In this document: positions 16,687-28,400 of the stretch, piece after piece
Numbering within the stretch: the first letter of the stretch is position 1
Layout of the letters: each line of letters begins with the position of its first letter
From: Akkermansiaceae bacterium
Lineage (GTDB): Bacteria; Verrucomicrobiota; Verrucomicrobiia; Verrucomicrobiales; Akkermansiaceae
Reading direction: 5' to 3'
Assembly: GCA_015062005.1 (NCBI GenBank)
Contig: SUVL01000007.1
Coordinates: forward strand, 1-64,000
DNA length: 64,000 bases
Translations under genes and position numbers: made by a program
The notes under the pieces: generated by a model
The model's database searches: none
What the model was told of the DNA's origin: nothing
What the model saw: the letters and a program-made list of their open reading frames with translations, nothing else

Positions 16687-16884
16687 AATCCCTCATGTGC
16701 TAGCATGAGGGATTTCATACATGCCACAGGCATGTATTTCATGCACTGCGATAGCAGTGCTTTCATACCGCTGCTCGCAGCGGTATTTACATACTTGCGA
16801 TAGCAAGTATTTCATTGAGCGACCCGTCTCGGCGTAGCTTTAGCGGAGACAGAAGCGACTAGTTACCGCTGCATTAGCAGCGGT
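16687..16884. repeat. array of perfect short inverted repeats with ATTTCAT-type spacers
   Basis: Palindromes 16687-16714, 16717-16737, 16743-16760, 16765-16786, 16791-16810, 16865-16884. Confidence 0.85.
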
Positions 16885-16889
16885 ACTGC

Positions 16890-17061
16890 CATCGCGCCGG
16901 CAGATGGATGCCGGAAAGCACTCCTTCACAGCCACCGGGCGGTTCAGCTTCTCATCCCACGCGCGGTACAGCACCCCGAACCCGCCGCGCGACGCGGCCG
17001 CCTGCAAGCGATAATGTCCCAGCAGAGTACCGGGCGGCAGCGCATCCACAAGGCCATCCAT
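16890..17061 (-). pseudogene. N-terminal fragment of a serine/threonine protein kinase
   Basis: LLGHYRLQAAASRGGFGVLYRAWDEKLNRPVAVKECFP = Gly-rich loop and VAVKE lysine; rest of kinase absent, tail encoded by hairpin repeat. Confidence 0.75.
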
Positions 17062-17078
17062 AGAGGATCAGATAAAAA

Positions 17079-17477
17079 TCAATTTCCCAGGCGCGGCACC
17101 TCATCCGCCAGGAACTCAGAAAGCGTCTTGCCCTGCGCAAAGGCACGCTTCTCCAGCGCAGCGCGAGTAGCGGCATCCAGGCTCAGCGTTATCTTCGTCT
17201 CCTCTTCCACCTGCACCCGGCCGGGCAACACCAGGGGCAGCTCCTTCACCATCTCCCGGATGATATGCACCTTGGCCGCCGGTATCAGCTTCTTGGCCAT
17301 CCAGTTGCGCACCGTGGCCTCTGATACATAGCAACGCTCCGCCAGCCAGGCGTAACTGTAATTGTTCGCCTTCAGCCAAATTTTAATGCTTTTCTTCAAA
17401 TCGGACTGGTCTTGCGTCTCCACGCTGCAAAAATAGCATTTTAGTGACATTATTGCAAGCAGTTTGTGCAGCTGCAC
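17079..17477 (-). CDS. putative DNA-binding regulator (HTH-like N-terminus, RHH-like C-terminus)
   Basis: YSYAWLAERCYVSEATVRNWMAKKLIP; KITLSLDAATRAALEKRAFAQGKTLSEFLADEV. Start uncertain (17477 or 17450). Confidence 0.6.
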   Translation of the reverse strand: MQLHKLLAIMSLKCYFCSVETQDQSDLKKSIKIWLKANNYSYAWLAERCYVSEATVRNWMAKKLIPAAKVHIIREMVKELPLVLPGRVQVEEETKITLSLDAATRAALEKRAFAQGKTLSEFLADEVPRLGN

Positions 17478-17558
17478 AGAATTTCTCCACGTCTAACCTG
17501 CAATTAAAGTTGACTTTCTATCTGTTTTGCGACATATTATAAAACGTAACGTATCTTT

Positions 17559-18014
17559 ATGGCCACTAAAATCATTTTCACCTGTCCGGCTTGCGGGGGA
17601 CACGAGCTCATGCAGATTCAACAGGCCGTGCACCGCATCCCCATCGACCTCCAGCGAACAGCAGATGGTGAATGGGAAGCCCTGCCCGTGGGCAGCACAC
17701 AGGAGCTCAAAGGCCGCACCCTGGGTTACCGCTGCGCCCGGTGCCGCTACCCGGACGTACCCAACCACGAAGATTCGGACGGCTTCTACTGGCAGACTCC
17801 GGAGCAGATAGCCACCAGCGGCGCCCTCACCGGATTCGCGCCGCAGCAGGCAGCCAGCATCTCCGCCTTCACCATCTGCCAGCCGGATGGCACCACCCGC
17901 CGCATCACCCACACCCCGCCCCACCCCGGCACCCTCACCATCGAGGAGCGCACCTCCATCCTCGCCGCCCACCACGCCCCCGCCGGCTCCGTGCTGCTCA
18001 TGGAGGGGGAGTGA
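17559..18014 (+). CDS. hypothetical zinc-ribbon protein
   Basis: FTCPACGGHE and YRCARCRYPDVP cysteine pairs. Confidence 0.55.
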   Translation: MATKIIFTCPACGGHELMQIQQAVHRIPIDLQRTADGEWEALPVGSTQELKGRTLGYRCARCRYPDVPNHEDSDGFYWQTPEQIATSGALTGFAPQQAASISAFTICQPDGTTRRITHTPPHPGTLTIEERTSILAAHHAPAGSVLLMEGE

Positions 18015-18098: not shown

Positions 18099-18821
18099 AT
18101 GACTTGTCCTCTCCCCAAACTGATTCAGCGCCTTATCCGGACACTCATATGTGCTGCTCGCTCACTCCAACGCAGACTTCGCTGGAGTGAAATAAAAAAA
18201 ATCATCGTCTTCCTACAAAGAATGGCAAAAGCAGGGTCGGACGAGTGTCCCATTTCACGGGGCTTCCCGTCAAAGTCTGCTGTGGATGATTTTGATATAT
18301 GCAAACTGAATCCGTTGCCAGAAATAAAAAAAAGTCCCCATCAAAATACCTGTGCCGCTTCCATTTCCGAGCCTCTTGTCCTTCAGCCTGCGACAAATAA
18401 AGGGTTCGAAACTGCCGCGATTTTAGCATTGACTGACTGTATTACAGATTCAAACCTAAAAGAATTAATCAAAGACAGGTTGTCTGAGATTGATGACGAA
18501 ACAGGTAATATTGAAAAGCAGGCACTTTGCGCAGTCAATCTGTACGATGAAATCAACACCTTCATTAGATCATACAAGGGTAAAAACAACGAACAATTAG
18601 AAAAAATTCTTTCCCGGATTCGCTCCGAATTGCGACATCACCATTGCGAGTTAATCGACGAAGATACCTGGAATCCAGAACATCAACGAGCCGTTGCCAT
18701 TGCCTACACTCTTCCAGAAAACAGCACTCCTATAATTTCAGAAAAAAAATCAACAGGATTAATAGTAAACAACCGACTCATCCGCAAACAAGAAGTAACC
18801 CTCCAGAAAAGCAAAATCTAA
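18099..18821 (+). CDS. divergent GrpE-like nucleotide exchange factor
   Basis: C-terminus DTWNPEHQRAVAIAYTLPENSTPIISEKKSTGLIVNNRLIRKQEVTLQKS resembles GrpE FDPxxHEAV...VLQKGYxLNDRVLRPAxVxVxK. Confidence 0.65.
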   Translation: MTCPLPKLIQRLIRTLICAARSLQRRLRWSEIKKIIVFLQRMAKAGSDECPISRGFPSKSAVDDFDICKLNPLPEIKKSPHQNTCAASISEPLVLQPATNKGFETAAILALTDCITDSNLKELIKDRLSEIDDETGNIEKQALCAVNLYDEINTFIRSYKGKNNEQLEKILSRIRSELRHHHCELIDEDTWNPEHQRAVAIAYTLPENSTPIISEKKSTGLIVNNRLIRKQEVTLQKSKI

Positions 18822-18833
18822 GCCCCATACACT

Positions 18834-19727
18834 ATGTTAGATATAGATCCCCTAATCGATTCTCTTCAGGACATCAATGCCCAGGATGTCGCACAAATTA
18901 TTTCAACAGGATACGCCATAGTAGATGCGTTCCAACCGCAATCTACTCTTATCGGCACTCCGGATGTATACGACTGGACGCAGCAGATTATGCCCGATAA
19001 CTGCGCAGTCGAAGCAGAGCGAGCTATTCTCAACCTCTTTACAGACACTCCACTGTCCCAGGTTGAAGCCATGTTCATATCAGCAACAAACGGCTGGTAT
19101 ATGCCAGGGGTGGGAACATCTCCCTCAGATATCGGTCATCTTCTGGAAATGAACGGAATACCTACCCACACCATATATGGTGCAACCATATCAGACCTTG
19201 CCTCAGAGCTATCCATGGGTCATGGCCTGATTGTGGGAGTTGATTCACTGGAACTCTGGGATTCCGGCCCATTATCAGAACTCAAACAGTGGATGAGTCA
19301 CACATGGAATGTGGATTTTGGGGATGTAGCGGCTAATCATGCGGTACTCGTAACAGGAATAGATATCTCCGATCCGTTGGACCCCAAAGTAATTCTCAAT
19401 GATTCAGGCGTACCGAATGGCCAGGGGGTTGCTTATCCGTTGGAAAAGTTCATGCAGGCATGGCAGGATAGTGGTTTCTACTACACGGCTACTGATATTT
19501 CTCTTCCAGACCAGCAAGTTCTGGGTAACCTTAGTGATATGGAAAGTATCATAAACAATCTGAGTATGTTTGCTGGTGGATTTGTCGGAACCTTTGTCGG
19601 GCTGGAAACATTTGCCACGACGGGAGATATCGCGGCCTCAGTCTCTACTGGCGTAAGCTCCGCTAACATGACCATCAATCTGGTTGAAAATCTCTTTTCA
19701 GACGATTCATTTATCTGCGCTCTTTAA
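18834..19727 (+). CDS. C39/papain-like cysteine peptidase with hydrophobic Gly-rich C-terminal segment
   Basis: WTQQIMPDNCAVEAERAILNLF (Q..C), ANHAVLVTGIDI (His), VILNDSG (Asn/Asp); MFAGGFVGTFVGLETFATTGDIAASVSTG. Confidence 0.65.
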   Translation: MLDIDPLIDSLQDINAQDVAQIISTGYAIVDAFQPQSTLIGTPDVYDWTQQIMPDNCAVEAERAILNLFTDTPLSQVEAMFISATNGWYMPGVGTSPSDIGHLLEMNGIPTHTIYGATISDLASELSMGHGLIVGVDSLELWDSGPLSELKQWMSHTWNVDFGDVAANHAVLVTGIDISDPLDPKVILNDSGVPNGQGVAYPLEKFMQAWQDSGFYYTATDISLPDQQVLGNLSDMESIINNLSMFAGGFVGTFVGLETFATTGDIAASVSTGVSSANMTINLVENLFSDDSFICAL

Positions 19728-19750
19728 TTTTTACCACCCAACTGAATACT

Positions 19751-21601
19751 ATGGAACAGTTCACCAATTCTCTGCTCGCCCTTTCCAAATTGCATAGCAA
19801 GCTCACCAATACAGAGGAGAGCGAAGATTTCGTCACCAACATCAAAGCATGGGGTGCGGGCATCTTCCGTCTCATCGTCATGGGTGAAATCAAAAAGGGA
19901 AAATCATCCTTTATTAATGCCTTGCTTGGCGTGAATGAGCTCGTCCCGACCTCATCCGATATAGCCACCTCCACTGTCTACAAAATCCACTATGGCGCTA
20001 AAAGCAGCTACAGAGTGCACTTTGAACCCGAAACCAGGCAGAAGCCGATTGCCATTACAGCCGATGAAGTAGAAGACTATGGCACAGAAAAAGGCAATCC
20101 ACTCAACAAGAAGCACGTGGATTTCATCGAGGTTATCTCCGACGCAGAACTGCTTAAAAGTGGTTTGGTCATCATCGACACCCCCGGGCTCGGCGGACTT
20201 TTCAAAGAACACAAAAAAATCACATGGCAGCACGTGCCTAAAGCGGATGCCGTTTTCTTTGTGACTGATAGTGTTGAGTCTCCCATAGGCATGGAAGAAT
20301 TGGTACATCTTTCCACCGTCCAGAAAATTACTCCGCACATCTTCTTTGTTCAGACCAAAGCGAGCGTGGTCAGTGAAGAAGCCGCAATCGCCAGAAAAAA
20401 CAACAATCTGGAAATCCTTTCCCGCCATTTAAAAGTTAATAGTGCCAGGATTCCATACTTCATCACAGATGCCGTATTAAAGCAAGAATCGGCACAATGT
20501 CAAGATATGGAATTGCTGCAGATGAGCGGTTACCCAGCCCTCCTTCATTTCATGCAGAATGGGCTCATAGCCAAGCAAAGGCAACTCATTAAATCAAAAG
20601 CAATCCGCTATGCTGCCCCCATGCTGGAAGCCCTCCAGGCTGCTCTCTCGCAGCGTAAAGAAATCCTGCAGGCGGATTCCACAGAAAAACAACAGGCTAC
20701 TCAAAAAGCGATAAAACTGGCTCAGGATGAACTCCGCGAATGGCAGCAATCCCGGTTGCCGCAGCTACAGAAGGAAATTAACAGAGGCTTCAAACGCATT
20801 CAGTCAGATTGTGAAGAATACTGTGCCCAGCTCAGACCGAATGGGGAAATGCAGGCATCTCTGGAAAATGAAATCAACAAGGCAACCTCTACCAAGAATC
20901 TTGGTGAGATAATCGCCACCATTCAGGAAAAACTGCCAGAAACCGCTTCTGTCTGCATCACAGAAGTTCAAAAACGATACGACCAGGGAATCAAGCAGCT
21001 ATTCGAAGAACTCACTTCAACAGAAAACACAGAAAGCGAAACTTCTACAGAAATCTCTCAGCAATCTCAGTTTCCAAACACAAATGCCTTCGCCTCAGTA
21101 TTAAAAGGAATAGAAAAGGGGGATGCAAAATGGAATCAGGTTAAATCTATTGCCATGGGTGGCACCATAGGTGGCAATATCGGGGGGCTCATAGGGGGTG
21201 CCATAGGTAGTGTCATTCCCGTCATTGGTACTGCCGTCGGAGGTTTTGTTGGTGCCGCTATCGGTGCTATGTGGGGCGGAGCCGTTGCCAGCGAAGAACG
21301 AGCAGAACATGCTTTGGACTCAGCCAAAATGCAAGCCCGGAACGAACTTGTCAAAAACATTTCCTCTATATATAACAACATCTCATTCACTCTGCGCAAA
21401 CTCAATGAGCGGTATAGTCAGCACGTTGAAGACTCACTCCAGACCGCTCTTACGCAACGCTCTCAAGAGCTTAACAAAGCCTATCAATCAATCGTTGACC
21501 GAAGTAAAATGGATGCAAAGGCTCTCGCAGAGGCAAAGACAGAGCTAAAACAAGATGAGGAACAACTGCATGCCATACTGCGAATTCTGAAAGCACAATA
21601 A
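19751..21601 (+). CDS. dynamin-like GTPase 1 with glycine-zipper membrane segment
   Basis: GEIKKGKSSFINALLG (G1), IIDTPGLGG (G3), FVQTKA (G4-like); GGTIGGNIGGLIGGAIGSVIPVIGTAVGGFVGAAIGAMWGG. Confidence 0.88.
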   Translation: MEQFTNSLLALSKLHSKLTNTEESEDFVTNIKAWGAGIFRLIVMGEIKKGKSSFINALLGVNELVPTSSDIATSTVYKIHYGAKSSYRVHFEPETRQKPIAITADEVEDYGTEKGNPLNKKHVDFIEVISDAELLKSGLVIIDTPGLGGLFKEHKKITWQHVPKADAVFFVTDSVESPIGMEELVHLSTVQKITPHIFFVQTKASVVSEEAAIARKNNNLEILSRHLKVNSARIPYFITDAVLKQESAQCQDMELLQMSGYPALLHFMQNGLIAKQRQLIKSKAIRYAAPMLEALQAALSQRKEILQADSTEKQQATQKAIKLAQDELREWQQSRLPQLQKEINRGFKRIQSDCEEYCAQLRPNGEMQASLENEINKATSTKNLGEIIATIQEKLPETASVCITEVQKRYDQGIKQLFEELTSTENTESETSTEISQQSQFPNTNAFASVLKGIEKGDAKWNQVKSIAMGGTIGGNIGGLIGGAIGSVIPVIGTAVGGFVGAAIGAMWGGAVASEERAEHALDSAKMQARNELVKNISSIYNNISFTLRKLNERYSQHVEDSLQTALTQRSQELNKAYQSIVDRSKMDAKALAEAKTELKQDEEQLHAILRILKAQ

Positions 21602-21613
21602 GGGCATATACAT

Positions 21614-23227
21614 ATGAACACAGAAAGCACACTGGCAGCCAACAGGATACATCTCACCTACAGAGATTCTCTCCTGCAGTTGGCTGATGCCATGGGCAAA
21701 TACGATTTCTTGAACAAAAAAGAGCAAGAGCTGCGTGTGCTGGCTGCTAATCTGCAATCTCCGTTTAATGTAGCTGTTTTCGGCCGCATGAAAACAGGCA
21801 AAAGTACACTTATTAATGCGCTCATCGGCAGGCAACTCGCTATTACCGGGGTAGAAGAGGCAACCGCCACCATCAACCGTATCTCGTACGCCTCCGGAGA
21901 ACAGCTGGATACTTTTACTGTTCACTGGCAGGACACCCAGCCAGAAACTTTCCCCATAGAGCAACTTCAAAAAGATTGGACAGGCAAATCCTCAGATGTG
22001 TTGAACCGGGTTCGACGCGCCGCATGGTTGGAGCTCTTTTCTGATGCTCCAGCATTACGGGATATCCACATCACAGACACCCCCGGTACCGGGGCTGATG
22101 TTGCAGAACACGAAACCATAGCTAAACAATTCATTAACGGTCAAGAGGCTGACGCTTTGCTTTATGTGTTTTCTCCAACAGGAAGAGAAAGCGACGAATC
22201 GGACTTGGAGGCATTCCGCAGCGGATGTCTGCCTGGCTCTTCGTTAGATAACAGCATAGCAGTACTTCATAAATGGGACCACATTTACTGGAATGAAGAT
22301 AACTGGGAGTCTATTGTTTCCAAAGCAAATCGCGTTCACGGTTTTATGCAGGACCTGGTTTCTTGCGTTATCCCCATCAGCGCGCCATTAGGCCTCATTG
22401 CCAAAACAGCTCCTGAATCATTCTGGCAAGACTGCCGGGAACTACTGTCCTCGTTTACCGATGAACTGGCACTCAAACGTGCACTTCTGGCTCATAGTCT
22501 CTGGAAAAGGAATCCTCAACAACTGGCACTTTCTTCAAGGGCTGAACAGCTGGGCTGTCCCTGGAGCAGTTTCTGTGTATTGTTGCGACACCTCTATCGG
22601 AATCCGGGAACAGATGAGGCGAGCGCCATACTGGAGCTTAGCGGCATACTCAGATTAGAACAACTGTTGGATAAACAAATCTTTTCCGTCAGGTCCGTCA
22701 TTCAGCAAAAGCAGAACTGTGCCCGAGCCCGCAAACTGCTGGATGACGTCTACCGGGTCATCAACAGCGAACAGGAAAGGCAACAGGATAACATCAGCAT
22801 GATGGAAAAAATCTACTCCCTGATTGATGAATCTGAAATCGATGCCAGACGATGGCTGGATAACCTGCAGGGAACGGCAAAGTGGCAACATCAGCAGCTG
22901 GCGCAGGACTCTCTCAGTCTGGATAGATTACGCATCCGCATCCGCGATTGGGCAGATGCCATTACCAATGCGCACGACCTCATCCCCTGGCTTAAAGACA
23001 ATGACGGACTCCCGCTTCAACGGGAAGCCGCGGATTTATGCGTACGCATTTTGAAATCGCTTCTTCCCAATGGGGAATCCACAACAGACATTTCACGAGA
23101 AACAATAGTACAACTCCTGCCTGCAATTGCCAGACTTGCGAACCTCCCCTGCGTTTCAGATAAACACAAGGCTGAACGTTTACGCAACTGTCTCATGTAC
23201 TGGGGGTCGCAATCCAATCATTCCTGA
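21614..23227 (+). CDS. dynamin-like GTPase 2
   Basis: VFGRMKTGKSTLINALIG (G1), ITDTPGTGADVAEHE (G3), VLHKWDH (G4). Confidence 0.85.
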   Translation: MNTESTLAANRIHLTYRDSLLQLADAMGKYDFLNKKEQELRVLAANLQSPFNVAVFGRMKTGKSTLINALIGRQLAITGVEEATATINRISYASGEQLDTFTVHWQDTQPETFPIEQLQKDWTGKSSDVLNRVRRAAWLELFSDAPALRDIHITDTPGTGADVAEHETIAKQFINGQEADALLYVFSPTGRESDESDLEAFRSGCLPGSSLDNSIAVLHKWDHIYWNEDNWESIVSKANRVHGFMQDLVSCVIPISAPLGLIAKTAPESFWQDCRELLSSFTDELALKRALLAHSLWKRNPQQLALSSRAEQLGCPWSSFCVLLRHLYRNPGTDEASAILELSGILRLEQLLDKQIFSVRSVIQQKQNCARARKLLDDVYRVINSEQERQQDNISMMEKIYSLIDESEIDARRWLDNLQGTAKWQHQQLAQDSLSLDRLRIRIRDWADAITNAHDLIPWLKDNDGLPLQREAADLCVRILKSLLPNGESTTDISRETIVQLLPAIARLANLPCVSDKHKAERLRNCLMYWGSQSNHS

Positions 23228-23231
23228 CACC

Positions 23232-25460
23232 ATGAACACCCACGCCATCGGTATCGACTTCGGCACCAGCAAAACGCTGGTCAGCCACATTAATCCCCAG
23301 ACAGGGCATCCCGAAACCATCCGGCTCGGCCGCGGTGGAGATTTGATTCCTACCACAATCTTTATCGATTCTGCCGGGCGTTTTTCTTTCGGGGACGACG
23401 CCGATGATATGATTGAAGATATTTCCGGCACCTACCTGCGGGGGGTCAAAATGCAGCTGGGGTCTGATACCCCTGTTCACATGTATCTGGCTTCCAATGG
23501 AGATTGCAGGCAATTAACAGCTAAAGACCTGGTAAGGGAATATCTGCTCTATATCCGGCAACAGGTGGAAAAACTGGTTTACCAGGGAGAATCGGTCACC
23601 AGGGCTACCATCACCCGTCCTGTCAATTTCTCGCCAGCCCAGTGTCAGGAACTGCAACAGGCGGCGATTGCCGCCGGCTTTAAGCATGTGGAGTTCACTA
23701 CCGAACCGGAAGCCGCCGGCCTTGCCTATTGCAGGCTCAACGCAGCCCATGCCTTTGCCAGAAATGCGCTGGTGGTCGACTGGGGTGGCGGTACGCTCGA
23801 TTTTGCGCTCGTCACCCGTAGTCACGATTCTGTCAGAACTCATGGGCACCTGACAGATGGTGATATGGAAATGGGCGGCGAGAAGTTCGATGAAATACTG
23901 TGGAACTATGCAGTAGAATCGCTGAAAAGCCATGGTGTAACCACCCTGAATCCAGTTTCTCAATTACCAAGGGTTCGCAGAAGCAAAGAGTTGCTCAGCT
24001 CTCGACAGGAAGTCATCCTGCGACTGAGCCAGGAAAACGGGGCCTGTCCACCGTTGGCGCTCAGCCGAGAGACCTTCAACCTCATGATTGCTGCCTATAT
24101 TGACAAGGCTGCACAGAAACTCCACAGTTTATTATCGCGCATACCCTCAGAACACCAGCCCGAGATGTTGCTCCTCGTAGGCGGTAGCAGCCAGATTCCG
24201 CTGATTAAGGAAAAGCTGGAGGAGGCATGCGGGCTTCCTGCCTACATGTGGCACTACTCCCGCGAAGCTGTGGCACTTGGAGCTGCGTTGTGGAGCTATG
24301 TTCCACCTACTCCCGAAGAGAAGATTCAACATGAAAGGAATAAGGCTAGAATCGAATTGAACAGGAGAGGAATCGAACCAGATGAGTACGATACAAATCT
24401 GCTTCGTGCGGCAGGGAAAGGCGACATTGCTTTCATTCAATTGCTCCTTTCCGCTGGGACTGATATTAACGCCACCGGTAATAATCTCGAAACCGCTCTA
24501 TATGAAGCTGTATATTCCGGGAACATGGAGTGCATAGTATTTCTGACTGAAATCAATGATATTGATATCAACAAAGCGGATAATACAGGTTGTACTCCAC
24601 TCATACTGGCTGCCGCGTCAGGCAATACACAGTGTGTTGATTTACTTCTCTCTAAACCTGATATAAAAGTAAACCAAACGGACAATCATGGACGGAGTGC
24701 CCTTTTCGTAGCATGCCAGACAGGGCACGCAGAATGTGTCAAGAAATTGGTTTCGGCAAAAGGAATAAACGTAAACCTCCAGACAGAAAACAAACTTTCT
24801 CCGCTTCATATTGCCACATACCTGTGCCATTCAGAGTGTGTCCGGGAATTGCTTGCAGCTCCACACATACAAGTTAATCTTCCAGAAGAATCGGGGGGAA
24901 CTCCCCTCATCCTGTTAATGATGCCAAATGAGGAAACAAAGCAGCAGAATAAGCTCGAATGCTTACGAACCTTACTTCAATGTGCTGAAGTCAACATCAA
25001 CGCTACCGCTTACAATGGGAACACTCCACTCGTTATAGCCGCAATGTCAGGGTATCACCTTCTTGTTCGGGAGCTTTGTAAAACACAGCACATTGACATC
25101 AACAAAAAAGGCAATAATGATACCACAGCCCTTGGTGCCGCCATTTTGGCTAATCATGTTAAATGCGTGTCTGAATTACTTCAAGCACCAGCGATTAACG
25201 TCAACTTAAAGTGCAATGATTGCACCCCCCTCTACATTGCAGAACAAATGGGGCACAATGAATGCGCAGATTTGCTCCGTGCTAAACTTAACTCTGAAAA
25301 ACAAGCGCATCAACAACAGCCGACACCTTCTCAACCTCAAAGAAGGCCCAGCGGTTCAGACTTGGCAGGCTGTAGTTCTGAGTTTGCAGGCTGTTTGAAA
25401 TGGATAGCGTGGGGCTTTCTTCTGCACTTACCCATGTGGCTTATGAAATCATGTGACTAA
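23232..25460 (+). CDS. Hsp70-type ATPase domain fused to ankyrin repeats and C-terminal hydrophobic tail
   Basis: AIGIDFGTSKTLVSH, LVVDWGGGTLDFALV, LLLVGGSSQIPLI; repeated GxTPLxxAAxxGxxxCVxxLL units. Confidence 0.9.
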   Translation: MNTHAIGIDFGTSKTLVSHINPQTGHPETIRLGRGGDLIPTTIFIDSAGRFSFGDDADDMIEDISGTYLRGVKMQLGSDTPVHMYLASNGDCRQLTAKDLVREYLLYIRQQVEKLVYQGESVTRATITRPVNFSPAQCQELQQAAIAAGFKHVEFTTEPEAAGLAYCRLNAAHAFARNALVVDWGGGTLDFALVTRSHDSVRTHGHLTDGDMEMGGEKFDEILWNYAVESLKSHGVTTLNPVSQLPRVRRSKELLSSRQEVILRLSQENGACPPLALSRETFNLMIAAYIDKAAQKLHSLLSRIPSEHQPEMLLLVGGSSQIPLIKEKLEEACGLPAYMWHYSREAVALGAALWSYVPPTPEEKIQHERNKARIELNRRGIEPDEYDTNLLRAAGKGDIAFIQLLLSAGTDINATGNNLETALYEAVYSGNMECIVFLTEINDIDINKADNTGCTPLILAAASGNTQCVDLLLSKPDIKVNQTDNHGRSALFVACQTGHAECVKKLVSAKGINVNLQTENKLSPLHIATYLCHSECVRELLAAPHIQVNLPEESGGTPLILLMMPNEETKQQNKLECLRTLLQCAEVNINATAYNGNTPLVIAAMSGYHLLVRELCKTQHIDINKKGNNDTTALGAAILANHVKCVSELLQAPAINVNLKCNDCTPLYIAEQMGHNECADLLRAKLNSEKQAHQQQPTPSQPQRRPSGSDLAGCSSEFAGCLKWIAWGFLLHLPMWLMKSCD

Positions 25461-25532
25461 ATCTACATAACAATAAACTCAGGCAACTCTTGGAAATTGT
25501 CGCATATTTTTCACTACGAATAAAAAATCATT

Positions 25533-27677
25533 ATGCATTCCCACGCCATCGGTATAGACTTCGGCACCAGCAAAACGCTGGTCAGCCACATTAATCCCCA
25601 GACAGGGCATCCCGAAACCATCCGGCTCGGCCGCGGTGGAGATTTGATTCCTACCACAATCTTTATCGATTCTGACGGGCGTTTTTCTTTCGGGGACGAC
25701 GCCGATGATATGATTGAAGATATTTCCGGCACCTACCTGCGGGGATTCAAGATGCAGCTGGGGTCTGATACCCCTGTTCACATGTATCTGGCTCCCAATG
25801 GAGATTTCAGGCAATTGACTGCTAAAGACTTGGTAAGGGAATATCTGCTCTATATCCGGCAACAAGTAAAAAAACTGGTTTACCAGGGAGAACCAGTCAC
25901 CAGAGCCACCATCACCCGTCCCGTCAATTTCTCTCCCGCCCAGTGTCAGGAACTGCAACAGGCGGCGCTTGCCGCTGGCTTTGAGCATGTGGAGTTCACT
26001 ACCGAACCGGAAGCCGCAGGCCTTGCCTATTGCAGGCTCAATGCAGCCCACGCCTTTGCCAGAAATGCGCTTGTTGTCGACTGGGGTGGCGGTACTCTGG
26101 ATTTTGCGCTCGTCACCCGTAGTCACGATTCTGTAAGAACTCATGGGCACCTGACAGATGGTGATATGGAAATGGGCGGCGAAAAGTTCGATGAAATACT
26201 GTGGAACTATGCAGTAGAATCGCTGAAAAGCCATGGTGTAACCACCCTGAATCCAGTTTCTCAATTACCAAGGGTTCGCAGAAGCAAGGAGTTGCTCAGC
26301 TCACGACAGGAAGTCGCCCTGCGACTGAGCCATGAAAACGGTGCTTGCCCACCGTTGGAGCTCAGCCGAGAGACCTTCAACAGCATGATTGCAGCCTACA
26401 TTGACAAGGCTGCGCAAAAACTCCACGGGTTATTATCACGCATTCCCGCAGAACACCAGCCTGAGATGCTGCTTCTCGTAGGCGGCAGCAGTCAGATTCC
26501 GCTGATTAAGGAAACGCTGGAGGAGGCATGCGGGCTTCCTGCCTACATGTGGCACTACTCCCGCGAAGCCGTCGCGCTGGGAGCGGCTTTGTGGAATCAT
26601 GTTGAACAGAAACCAGCGGCTCCTAAGACGGAATCAAAGGCAGACAGAATTAAATTGATTAGTTCTGGAAATAATAAAATTGCGGTCATTAATACATTGC
26701 GCGATATTTACCCCCAGCTGGGACTTGCTGATGCAAAACAACTGGTTGAATCCGCCCCTGTCATTCTTCCTGATAAAACGGAAATGAACCCTTGTGTTGC
26801 AGCTGGCATGCTGGAACGCGCAGGCTGTAAAGTTAAGATTCTTTCAAAAGCTGAAGAATACGAACCTGAACAACACGAGTCTCTTTATAATAATATATCA
26901 GGAGTATGGGAAGGCTCGTGCACAAACCTCTCCGCAGGCGGCATAACCGCCCCTATAATGCTGGTTCTCGACACCAAAGCCCAGAAAATTACCGGAAATC
27001 TTGTGATAGGCGGTACTGAGCTAGTTGGAAGTGGAAAAATCACTGGACAAATCATCGGTAACTCCATAACTTTTCAATCCCCAGGCGACAACATCCACTT
27101 CTCTCAAATAACATGGAGGGGAACTGCATCCAATAATGTTATTGAGGGAACTTATGTCGTAGAGCCAAAGAATATATTCATTAAACCACAACATGGACTA
27201 TTCCGTACATCAAAACAAGAAAGGCAGAAGGGGACAAAGTCAGGCAGACTCAAATTGCTCAGCTTTGGAAATAATAAAATTGCGGTCATTAAGACATTGC
27301 GCGATATTTACCCCCATCTGGGACTTGCTGATGCAAAACAACTGGTTGAATCCGCCCCTGTCATTCTTCCTGATAAAACGGAAATGAACCCTTGTGTTGC
27401 AGCTGGCATGCTGGAACGCACAGGCTGTAAAGTTAAGATTCTTTCAAAAGATGAAGAATACGAAGGAGAACAAAAGGACACGCAGTTTGATAACGAATCA
27501 GGAACAAATGAAGGTTCCTGCACAAACCACCCCGCCGCTCAGGCTCCCACACACATCCCCCAACCAACGCATGAGCCTGCGGCTCCGCCAAAATCTGGAG
27601 GTTCATCAGATGACTCGGGATGTTGGAAAATTGTCTTTATAATCATAGCCATCGTTCTTATGTGTGCTTGCGGTTAA
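25533..27677 (+). CDS. Hsp70-type ATPase domain fused to two ribosomal L7/L12-CTD-like domains, a beta-rich middle region and a C-terminal TM
   Basis: NBD near-identical to previous gene; NNKIAVINTLRDIYPQLGLADAKQLVESAPVIL...GCKVKIL twice; CWKIVFIIIAIVLMCACG tail. Confidence 0.9.
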   Translation: MHSHAIGIDFGTSKTLVSHINPQTGHPETIRLGRGGDLIPTTIFIDSDGRFSFGDDADDMIEDISGTYLRGFKMQLGSDTPVHMYLAPNGDFRQLTAKDLVREYLLYIRQQVKKLVYQGEPVTRATITRPVNFSPAQCQELQQAALAAGFEHVEFTTEPEAAGLAYCRLNAAHAFARNALVVDWGGGTLDFALVTRSHDSVRTHGHLTDGDMEMGGEKFDEILWNYAVESLKSHGVTTLNPVSQLPRVRRSKELLSSRQEVALRLSHENGACPPLELSRETFNSMIAAYIDKAAQKLHGLLSRIPAEHQPEMLLLVGGSSQIPLIKETLEEACGLPAYMWHYSREAVALGAALWNHVEQKPAAPKTESKADRIKLISSGNNKIAVINTLRDIYPQLGLADAKQLVESAPVILPDKTEMNPCVAAGMLERAGCKVKILSKAEEYEPEQHESLYNNISGVWEGSCTNLSAGGITAPIMLVLDTKAQKITGNLVIGGTELVGSGKITGQIIGNSITFQSPGDNIHFSQITWRGTASNNVIEGTYVVEPKNIFIKPQHGLFRTSKQERQKGTKSGRLKLLSFGNNKIAVIKTLRDIYPHLGLADAKQLVESAPVILPDKTEMNPCVAAGMLERTGCKVKILSKDEEYEGEQKDTQFDNESGTNEGSCTNHPAAQAPTHIPQPTHEPAAPPKSGGSSDDSGCWKIVFIIIAIVLMCACG

Positions 27678-27709
27678 TTTTATCCAATACCAGATACTAT
27701 ATAAACTGC

Positions 27710-28135
27710 ATGAAACACCGCACTAGAAAGAGTCTTTATTTACACATTGCAACGTGCAGTACCGTCATTGCATGCTATTTAATCAACAAGTTCATCCTTT
27801 CAAACATTATAATACTGAAATGCTACTTCAATGATTTATTGTGTGGATTTGGTTTCTATTCCTTCATCTACACTAGCTATTACCTCGTTTCCGGGAAAGA
27901 GCCACCTAAAACGATTGACCACTTCTCCGGCATTCTTTGCCTAATATCCTTGGCATCTCTATTCTGGGAATATGTAGCTCCTCTATACATCAAAAGTTCC
28001 ACATCAGATTGTTATGATGTTATCTGCTATATGAGTGGCTGTTGCGTTTTTCTCATTCTACGTCTTATCGCAATATCCGAGTATCGAACTATAAAATTCA
28101 TACATACAGGACGCATACCTTCCCGTAGCCGATGA
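27710..28135 (+). CDS. small multi-TM membrane protein
   Basis: In-frame ATG within the 27620 ORF; several hydrophobic helices; 32 bp after previous stop. Confidence 0.6.
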   Translation: MKHRTRKSLYLHIATCSTVIACYLINKFILSNIIILKCYFNDLLCGFGFYSFIYTSYYLVSGKEPPKTIDHFSGILCLISLASLFWEYVAPLYIKSSTSDCYDVICYMSGCCVFLILRLIAISEYRTIKFIHTGRIPSRSR

Positions 28136-28279: not shown

Positions 28280-28400
28280 TTTGAAGTACGAAGGTAAGCA
28301 TCAATTTGTCGAGCTCTTTACTCCAACATTGGGACACATGCAGGGATTTTGCCGCAAGAGCAAGGTAACGATGATGCAAGCAATGGCAATATCAAATGCA

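Follow-up and report, generated by a model that had tools for sequence, protein, structure and literature searches.

A seven-gene cassette of dynamin-like GTPases, Hsp70-type ATPases, a GrpE-like protein, and a C39-like peptidase is a member of a widespread accessory module

The LeoABC, or Eleos, systems, to our knowledge, have no Hsp70, GrpE, or peptidase as a part. In Bacillus subtilis, DynA forms clusters on the membrane and postpones lysis when phage infect the cell (PMC8844932), and a dynamin that adjoins BDLP1 bears a DnaJ-like domain (PMC6104087). DO-GTPase systems include HSP70, GrpE, and an HSP70 without a peptide-binding domain, with no mention of dynamins (Kaur et al. 2020, eLife, PMC7159879). 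Here we describe a cassette of dynamin-like GTPases, Hsp70-type ATPases, a GrpE-like protein, and a C39/papain-like peptidase at positions 18099 to 28135 of a 64,000-nucleotide stretch of Akkermansiaceae DNA, referred to as the window. The window is part of contig C41 in a 2.43-Mb genome, the nearest relatives of which in the genome collection are Akkermansia metagenome-assembled genomes. No published description of the combination of dynamin, Hsp70, GrpE, and C39 was found in the open-licence literature.

An initial annotation of the window had described seven genes on one strand with gaps of about 4 to 72 bp, in DNA richer in AT than its flanks, and both statements were borne out by open reading frame (ORF) calls and base composition. 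All seven ORFs are on the forward strand, in the order GrpE-like, C39, two dynamins, two Hsp70 ATPases, and a transmembrane (TM) protein, with intergenic gaps from g1 to g7 of 12, 23, 12, 4, 72, and 32 bp. GC content is 0.42 to 0.52 in the cassette versus about 0.60 on the left and right flanks. The gene identities given by that annotation (GrpE-like, C39/papain-like, two dynamins, and Hsp70-type) agree with profile matches and predicted structures, and the features are as follows.

18099..18821, + strand: g1, GrpE-like protein, 240 aa, with a GrpE-like C-terminal part at about residues 104-240
18834..19727, + strand: g2, C39/papain-like cysteine peptidase, 297 aa, with triad Cys57, His169, Asp190 and hydrophobic C-terminal helices
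19751..21601, + strand: g3, dynamin-like GTPase 1, 616 aa, Dynamin_N match 2.7e-19, with a glycine-zipper hydrophobic segment at about residues 473-512
21614..23227, + strand: g4, dynamin-like GTPase 2, 537 aa, Dynamin_N match 2.1e-18
23232..25460, + strand: g5, Hsp70 ATPase domain (about residues 1-356) followed by ankyrin repeats, 742 aa, HSP70 match 4.2e-30 and Ank_2 match 5.8e-47
23239..24294, + strand: duplicated ATPase-domain block in g5, 93.9% identical over 1056 bp to its partner in g6 at 25540-26595
25533..27677, + strand: g6, Hsp70 ATPase domain with two L7/L12 C-terminal-like domains and a C-terminal TM segment, 714 aa, HSP70 match 3.6e-31
27710..28135, + strand: g7, small predicted TM protein, 141 aa, with predicted TM segments; a doubtful member

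The genes travel together in other genomes. A scan of genome contigs with the single sequence of g4 found nothing, and the peptidase alignment proved the useful bait: against one genome per species it returned 303 relatives, the best 80 of which were kept for a survey of neighbors within 10 kb of the C39 gene. Among these best 80 of 303 loci, a dynamin was present in 69, an Hsp70 domain in 61, and both in 54; two of the 69 dynamin counts (L101 and L111) rest on single or weak matches, and the neighbor counts are lower bounds because many loci are cut by contig ends. The 80 loci include seven from genomes already represented among the congener loci; when the 13 Akkermansia-like loci were removed, dynamin was present in 57 of 67 and Hsp70 in 49 of 67. 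Five cassette profiles gave no match in 237 kb of control DNA. Moreover, the order GrpE-C39-dyn1-dyn2-Hsp70 is kept in congener loci L023, L026, L027, L028, L030, L031, and L032, with variants of the order in L029 and L033. The initial annotation would have been undone by genes that do not travel together; instead, linkage extends across phyla with an empty control, which rules out chance adjacency. We conclude that the cassette is a real unit.

Some peptidase loci have other partners. Neither dynamin nor Hsp70 was found at 4 of the 80 loci, and all four have an AAA+ ATPase neighbor. C39 homologues with such a neighbor were noted at L061, L088, L091, L113, and L115, four of the five with neither dynamin nor Hsp70, which suggests a variant with a different NTPase. 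A distinct subtype, in which C39 has three dynamin-like genes in tandem and lacks an Hsp70 domain in the 10-kb neighborhood, was seen at L077, L078, L092, L100, and L114. Congener G029 has the GrpE-like gene, dyn1, and dyn2 with no peptidase between. Other congeners (L034, L035, and L036) carry a different cassette: a second locus with a distantly related Hsp70 pair, which also contains a weak match to the GrpE-like protein and another GTPase-like gene.

By record title, carriers of the cassette belong to at least seven phyla: Verrucomicrobiota, Bacteroidota, Bacillota, Actinomycetota, Planctomycetota, Cyanobacteriota, and Proteobacteria. Plasmid pANA01 of Anabaena sp. 90 carries two dynamins, C39, and Hsp70, and plasmid pLRE138 of Rhodococcus erythropolis carries C39, a dynamin, a GrpE-like gene, a GTPase, and two Hsp70 genes. 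On Prescottella equi plasmids (H8-H19, H42-H44, and H55-H63), C39, GTPase, and dynamin matches are spaced as in environmental Rhodococcus plasmids. The peptidase was found in 10 of 36 congeners and in 0 of 22 genomes searched from elsewhere in the order. Two very close relatives, G011 and G018 (rpsD about 99% identical), have no cassette: homology to the window starts at 28390 in G011, and G018 shares the left flank up to 18014 and has a right fragment from 28183, which brackets the insertion, with the joined site hidden by contig breaks. A phage-borne cassette was considered and set aside, as no peptidase relative was confirmed among viral contigs and one distant dynamin match was found in phage records. 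Because the cassette is patchy in the genus, missing from the closest relatives, and contrasting in GC, we conclude that it is accessory and was probably gained horizontally.

The Hsp70-type proteins depart from the canonical form. In both g5 and g6, the HSP70 Pfam match stops at profile position 373-375 of 599, and the remainder of the protein is made of ankyrin or L7/L12 domains. The g6 protein aligned with DnaK (2v7y) over residues 4-355 at 2.8e-25, and its tail has Ribosomal_L12 matches (7.6e-22) in two stretches and a TM segment at residues 696-714. Each protein has the Hsp70 nucleotide-binding domain and neither has the linker and peptide substrate-binding domain, which rules out a classical DnaK chaperone; thus, the two Hsp70-type ATPases first reported stand as ATPase domains (4.2e-30 and 3.6e-31) and not as whole chaperones. 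Within the duplicated ATPase block, 46 of 64 differences fall at third codon positions, and identity collapses abruptly at the tails, which are unrelated. Congener loci contain one to four Hsp70 genes, the tails of which are ankyrin, Sel1, L7/L12-like, or unrecognized, some ending in a TM segment. A fixed switch with recognition parts that diversify would be expected to show just such a constant ATPase with changing tails, and the tails are putatively those parts. Separately, the L7/L12-like domains of g6, at 26635-26864 and 27235-27464, share 94.8% DNA identity over 230 bp, and the pair is a recent internal duplication with an unrelated beta-rich stretch between.

The GrpE-like partner was less apparent, as g1 itself gave no match above chance in the Pfam scan of window proteins. 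Syntenic relatives of g1, reached by iterated hidden Markov model searches, matched PF01025 GrpE at up to 4.9e-14, and all of Foldseek ranks 1 to 11 for the AlphaFold model of g1 (predicted local distance difference test [pLDDT] of 84) were GrpE. Superposition of the full-length model on GrpE was poor, with a different arrangement of the long helix, but 102 C-terminal residues aligned with GrpEL1 (9bls) at a Z score of 9.9 and a root mean square deviation (rmsd) of 2.5 Å. The relatives' PF01025 matches and the Foldseek ranks point to the GrpE plan of a helical part followed by a beta-wing, and they overturn the reading of the empty Pfam result as "not GrpE"; the GrpE-like call, which Pfam alone would miss, was correct. 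The g1 helices also resemble helical bundles in unrelated proteins, which was taken as a common arrangement only. Several GrpE-like relatives have hydrophobic segments at the N terminus.

The peptidase assignment of g2 is weak by sequence (Pfam C39 match, E of 0.062) and firm by predicted structure. The g2 model (pLDDT of 81) matched best in the PDB to the C39-like peptidase 3erv (Z of 17.1, rmsd of 2.9, and 162 aligned residues), and its papain-like fold was matched also by ComA (3k8u; Z of 15.9) and PCAT1 (Z of 15.9). The structural comparison proposed in the initial annotation led from g1 to GrpE and from g2 to a C39-like peptidase. Cys57, His169, and Asp190 are each kept in 66 of 67 aligned relatives, and g2 is predicted to be cytosolic, with no signal peptide seen. 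At tubeworm-endosymbiont loci (L080:8931-9623, also L081 and L085), a second C39 copy adjoins the first, and in L080 both its catalytic Cys and its His are replaced by Gly.

Both dynamin-like proteins carry the G1 (Walker A) and G3 motifs of a dynamin G domain, GEIKKGKS and DTPG in g3 and GRMKTGKS and DTPG in g4. The g3 protein matched IniA (6j72) at 7.3e-25 across residues 25-610, nearly its whole length, and the nearest solved structure to g4 was Campylobacter DLP2 (5owv_C, 8.3e-11). PADLOC models, for which no curated cutoff was shown, gave LeoBC at 3e-24 on g3 and 1.7e-17 on g4 and LeoA at 6.6e-14 on g4. The earlier description of the cassette as membrane associated is supported by the glycine zipper of g3, the C-terminal TM segment of g6 and of some other Hsp70 tails, and the N-terminal hydrophobic segments of several GrpE-like relatives.

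One way in which these parts could act together is as a circuit, and we tentatively favor a mechanism, every step of which we infer, that would run from a tail-bearing Hsp70 switch through a GrpE reset and the peptidase to membrane action by the dynamin pair. The tails would recognize a signal, which might be a protein from an intruder, a complex that has assembled wrongly, or a site of membrane damage. The switch would be the ATP/ADP cycle of the Hsp70 domain, reset by the GrpE-like protein, and the switched Hsp70 would license the peptidase, the dynamin pair, or both through contact or limited proteolysis. The dynamins would then assemble on the membrane and seal or block it, giving late protection against phage or envelope attack. 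We favor this mechanism because of the conserved gene order, the linkage of all three components at 54 of 80 loci, the empty control, and the plasmid copies in cyanobacteria and actinobacteria; because of the constant ATPase with swapped tails, the triad kept in 66 of 67 relatives, and the hydrophobic segments of g3 and g6; and because the AT-rich cassette is patchy and absent from the closest relatives, with DO-GTPase-like genes adjoining it at several Bacteroidota loci. The dynamin endpoint is supported by the delay of lysis by DynA (PMC8844932), and Hsp70-dynamin coupling is supported by the DnaJ-like domain on the dynamin beside BDLP1 (PMC6104087). We conclude that the cassette is one member of a widespread accessory module, which probably works on the inner side of the cell membrane.

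Some observations weigh against the circuit. Some loci have the peptidase and dynamins without Hsp70, or the peptidase and Hsp70 without dynamins, and a linear circuit is therefore not required. Only one locus yielded a J-domain protein. Moreover, of 17 verrucomicrobial loci, just 2 had canonical defense genes identified alongside, pAgo at L050 and an HsdR-like gene at L051, and for that reason defense-island enrichment is not claimed. The proposed role in surveillance or conflict agrees with the patchy accessory spread, the swappable tails, and the DO-GTPase-type links, and sits less well with those 2 of 17 loci; judged from sequence, a defense role is plausible. In a stronger form that we consider unlikely, the Hsp70 ATPase domain would have become an NLR-like receptor scaffold, in which a tail-swapped array with GrpE reset forms a diversifying sensor layer and a papain-like protease fires the dynamin pair at the membrane. 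The NLR-like form, if true, would give bacteria across phyla a chaperone-based equivalent of STAND-protease-pore immune circuits.

The same parts could instead serve membrane maintenance. Hsc70 uncoats clathrin, and by analogy Hsp70 and GrpE might recycle dynamin polymers while the peptidase clears spent or damaged complexes in response to envelope stress from pore formers or detergents. The retained GrpE-like factor and ATP-binding motifs, the proximity of g3 to the stress-associated dynamin IniA, and the scarcity of canonical defense genes nearby all agree with maintenance, as does the published dynamin with a DnaJ-like domain (PMC6104087). However, the Hsp70s have no substrate-binding domain, which classical uncoating requires, a J-domain gene is missing at many loci, and a housekeeping role would not usually go with diversifying tails and patchy spread; overall, we regard maintenance as somewhat unlikely. 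If the C39 peptidase were itself a toxic effector that cuts host or phage proteins, the Hsp70/GrpE and dynamin parts would restrain it and sense membrane perturbation. The peptidase is indeed the common hub, occurring beside dynamins, Hsp70, or both and, at other loci, beside an AAA+ ATPase, and it has a conserved triad and a predicted cytosolic location. Its apparent centrality is nevertheless inflated by the choice of loci with a peptidase anchor, and G029 keeps the GrpE-like gene and both dynamins without it; an effector peptidase seems quite unlikely to us. Finally, composition and position in one genome, if viewed alone, would allow a chance or island-driven neighborhood with no functional unit, which cross-phylum linkage, conserved order, and empty controls make hardly credible. 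We conclude that the present evidence cannot separate the circuit, maintenance, and protease-effector readings.

Hsp70 is almost always regarded as a chaperone. In this cassette and its versions from at least seven phyla, the ATPase domain of Hsp70 lacks the client-binding half; it bears exchangeable repeat tails and is linked to its own GrpE-like partner, to dynamins, and to a protease. Should the tails be sensors, the cassette would represent a widespread surveillance system, and the purpose of paired bacterial dynamins could be tested directly in tractable hosts, among them Streptomyces and Bacteroides. The DnaJ-like domain reported for a cyanobacterial dynamin might also be accounted for by the cassette. 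If the role proves to be membrane repair and not defense, three well-known protein families are nonetheless tied into one unit for which no prior description was found.

The left flank of the cassette contains RluA, a truncated kinase, a helix-turn-helix (HTH) protein, and a zinc-ribbon-like ORF, and the right flank contains rpsD and rpsK. The truncated Ser/Thr kinase (74 aa), the HTH/ribbon-helix-helix-like protein, and the zinc-ribbon-like ORF at 16840-18014 form a recurring three-gene set that is also present at L037 (intact kinase, upstream of a full cassette), at L113 (with a lone C39), and at L152 (G018, without the cassette). Zinc-ribbon genes recur as cassette neighbors, and PADLOC kinase matches among neighbors were set aside as generic. 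A sigma-70-family factor gene recurs near C39 (L082:462-1055 and 18 other loci, mostly Bacteroidota) and is possibly a dedicated regulator. At L022 (12562-13125) and 17 other loci, from cyanobacteria, actinobacteria, Bacillota, and gammaproteobacteria, an unnamed conserved protein of about 190 aa adjoins C39, and two members of this family gave no Pfam match. For g7, the small TM protein of the initial annotation, the TM segments were predicted as described, the start was shifted to 27710, most likely correct because 27620 falls inside g6, and conservation was lacking; with no relative in the other fetched cassettes, g7 was dropped as a core component.

The cassette shares parts with several known systems. 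Like the DnaK-GrpE pair, it has Hsp70 nucleotide-binding motifs and a GrpE-fold partner in an operon, whereas g5 and g6 have repeats or other domains as tails in place of a substrate-binding domain and the cassette contains no DnaJ. The C39 peptidases of the ABC transporters ComA and PCAT1 share with g2 the papain-like fold and the Cys-His-Asp triad, but those are fused to transporters and g2 stands alone. The dynamin-like GTPases of LeoABC/Eleos (LeoA, LeoB, and LeoBC in PADLOC) are paired as in the cassette, yet IniA, and not the LeoBC model, is the better full-length match to g3. By sequence, IniA and Campylobacter DLP1/DLP2 are the closest solved dynamins, IniA for g3 and Cj-DLP2 for g4, and DLP1/DLP2 form a heterotypic operon pair like g3 and g4; unlike the cassette, neither is reported with Hsp70, GrpE, or C39 partners in the available portions of the sources. 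The tandem dynamin activity of DynA at the inner membrane likewise resembles g3 and g4, although DynA is one fused protein without chaperone or protease partners and the cassette has two dynamins with both. The closest published kind is the GAP1-N2-type DO-GTPase system with its HSP70/GrpE theme (PMC7159879), which has in common with the cassette paired GTPases with Hsp70 and GrpE, an Hsp70 without a peptide-binding domain, TM components, variable repeats, and accessory spread. The cassette differs in that its GTPases are dynamins, a C39 peptidase is central, and the fibronectin type III (FNIII)-DnaJ component was not detected in window proteins. Membership in the DO-GTPase families was rejected, as the window GTPases match Dynamin_N with no PF19975 or PF19993 match at E up to 1, and no GAP1-named family appeared in general Pfam/NCBIfam matches of window proteins, among which no dedicated profile search was made. 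The cassette has neither DO-GTPases nor the DnaK substrate-binding domain, and we conclude that it is best filed as a variant of NTPase-centered conflict systems rather than under any of the families tested.

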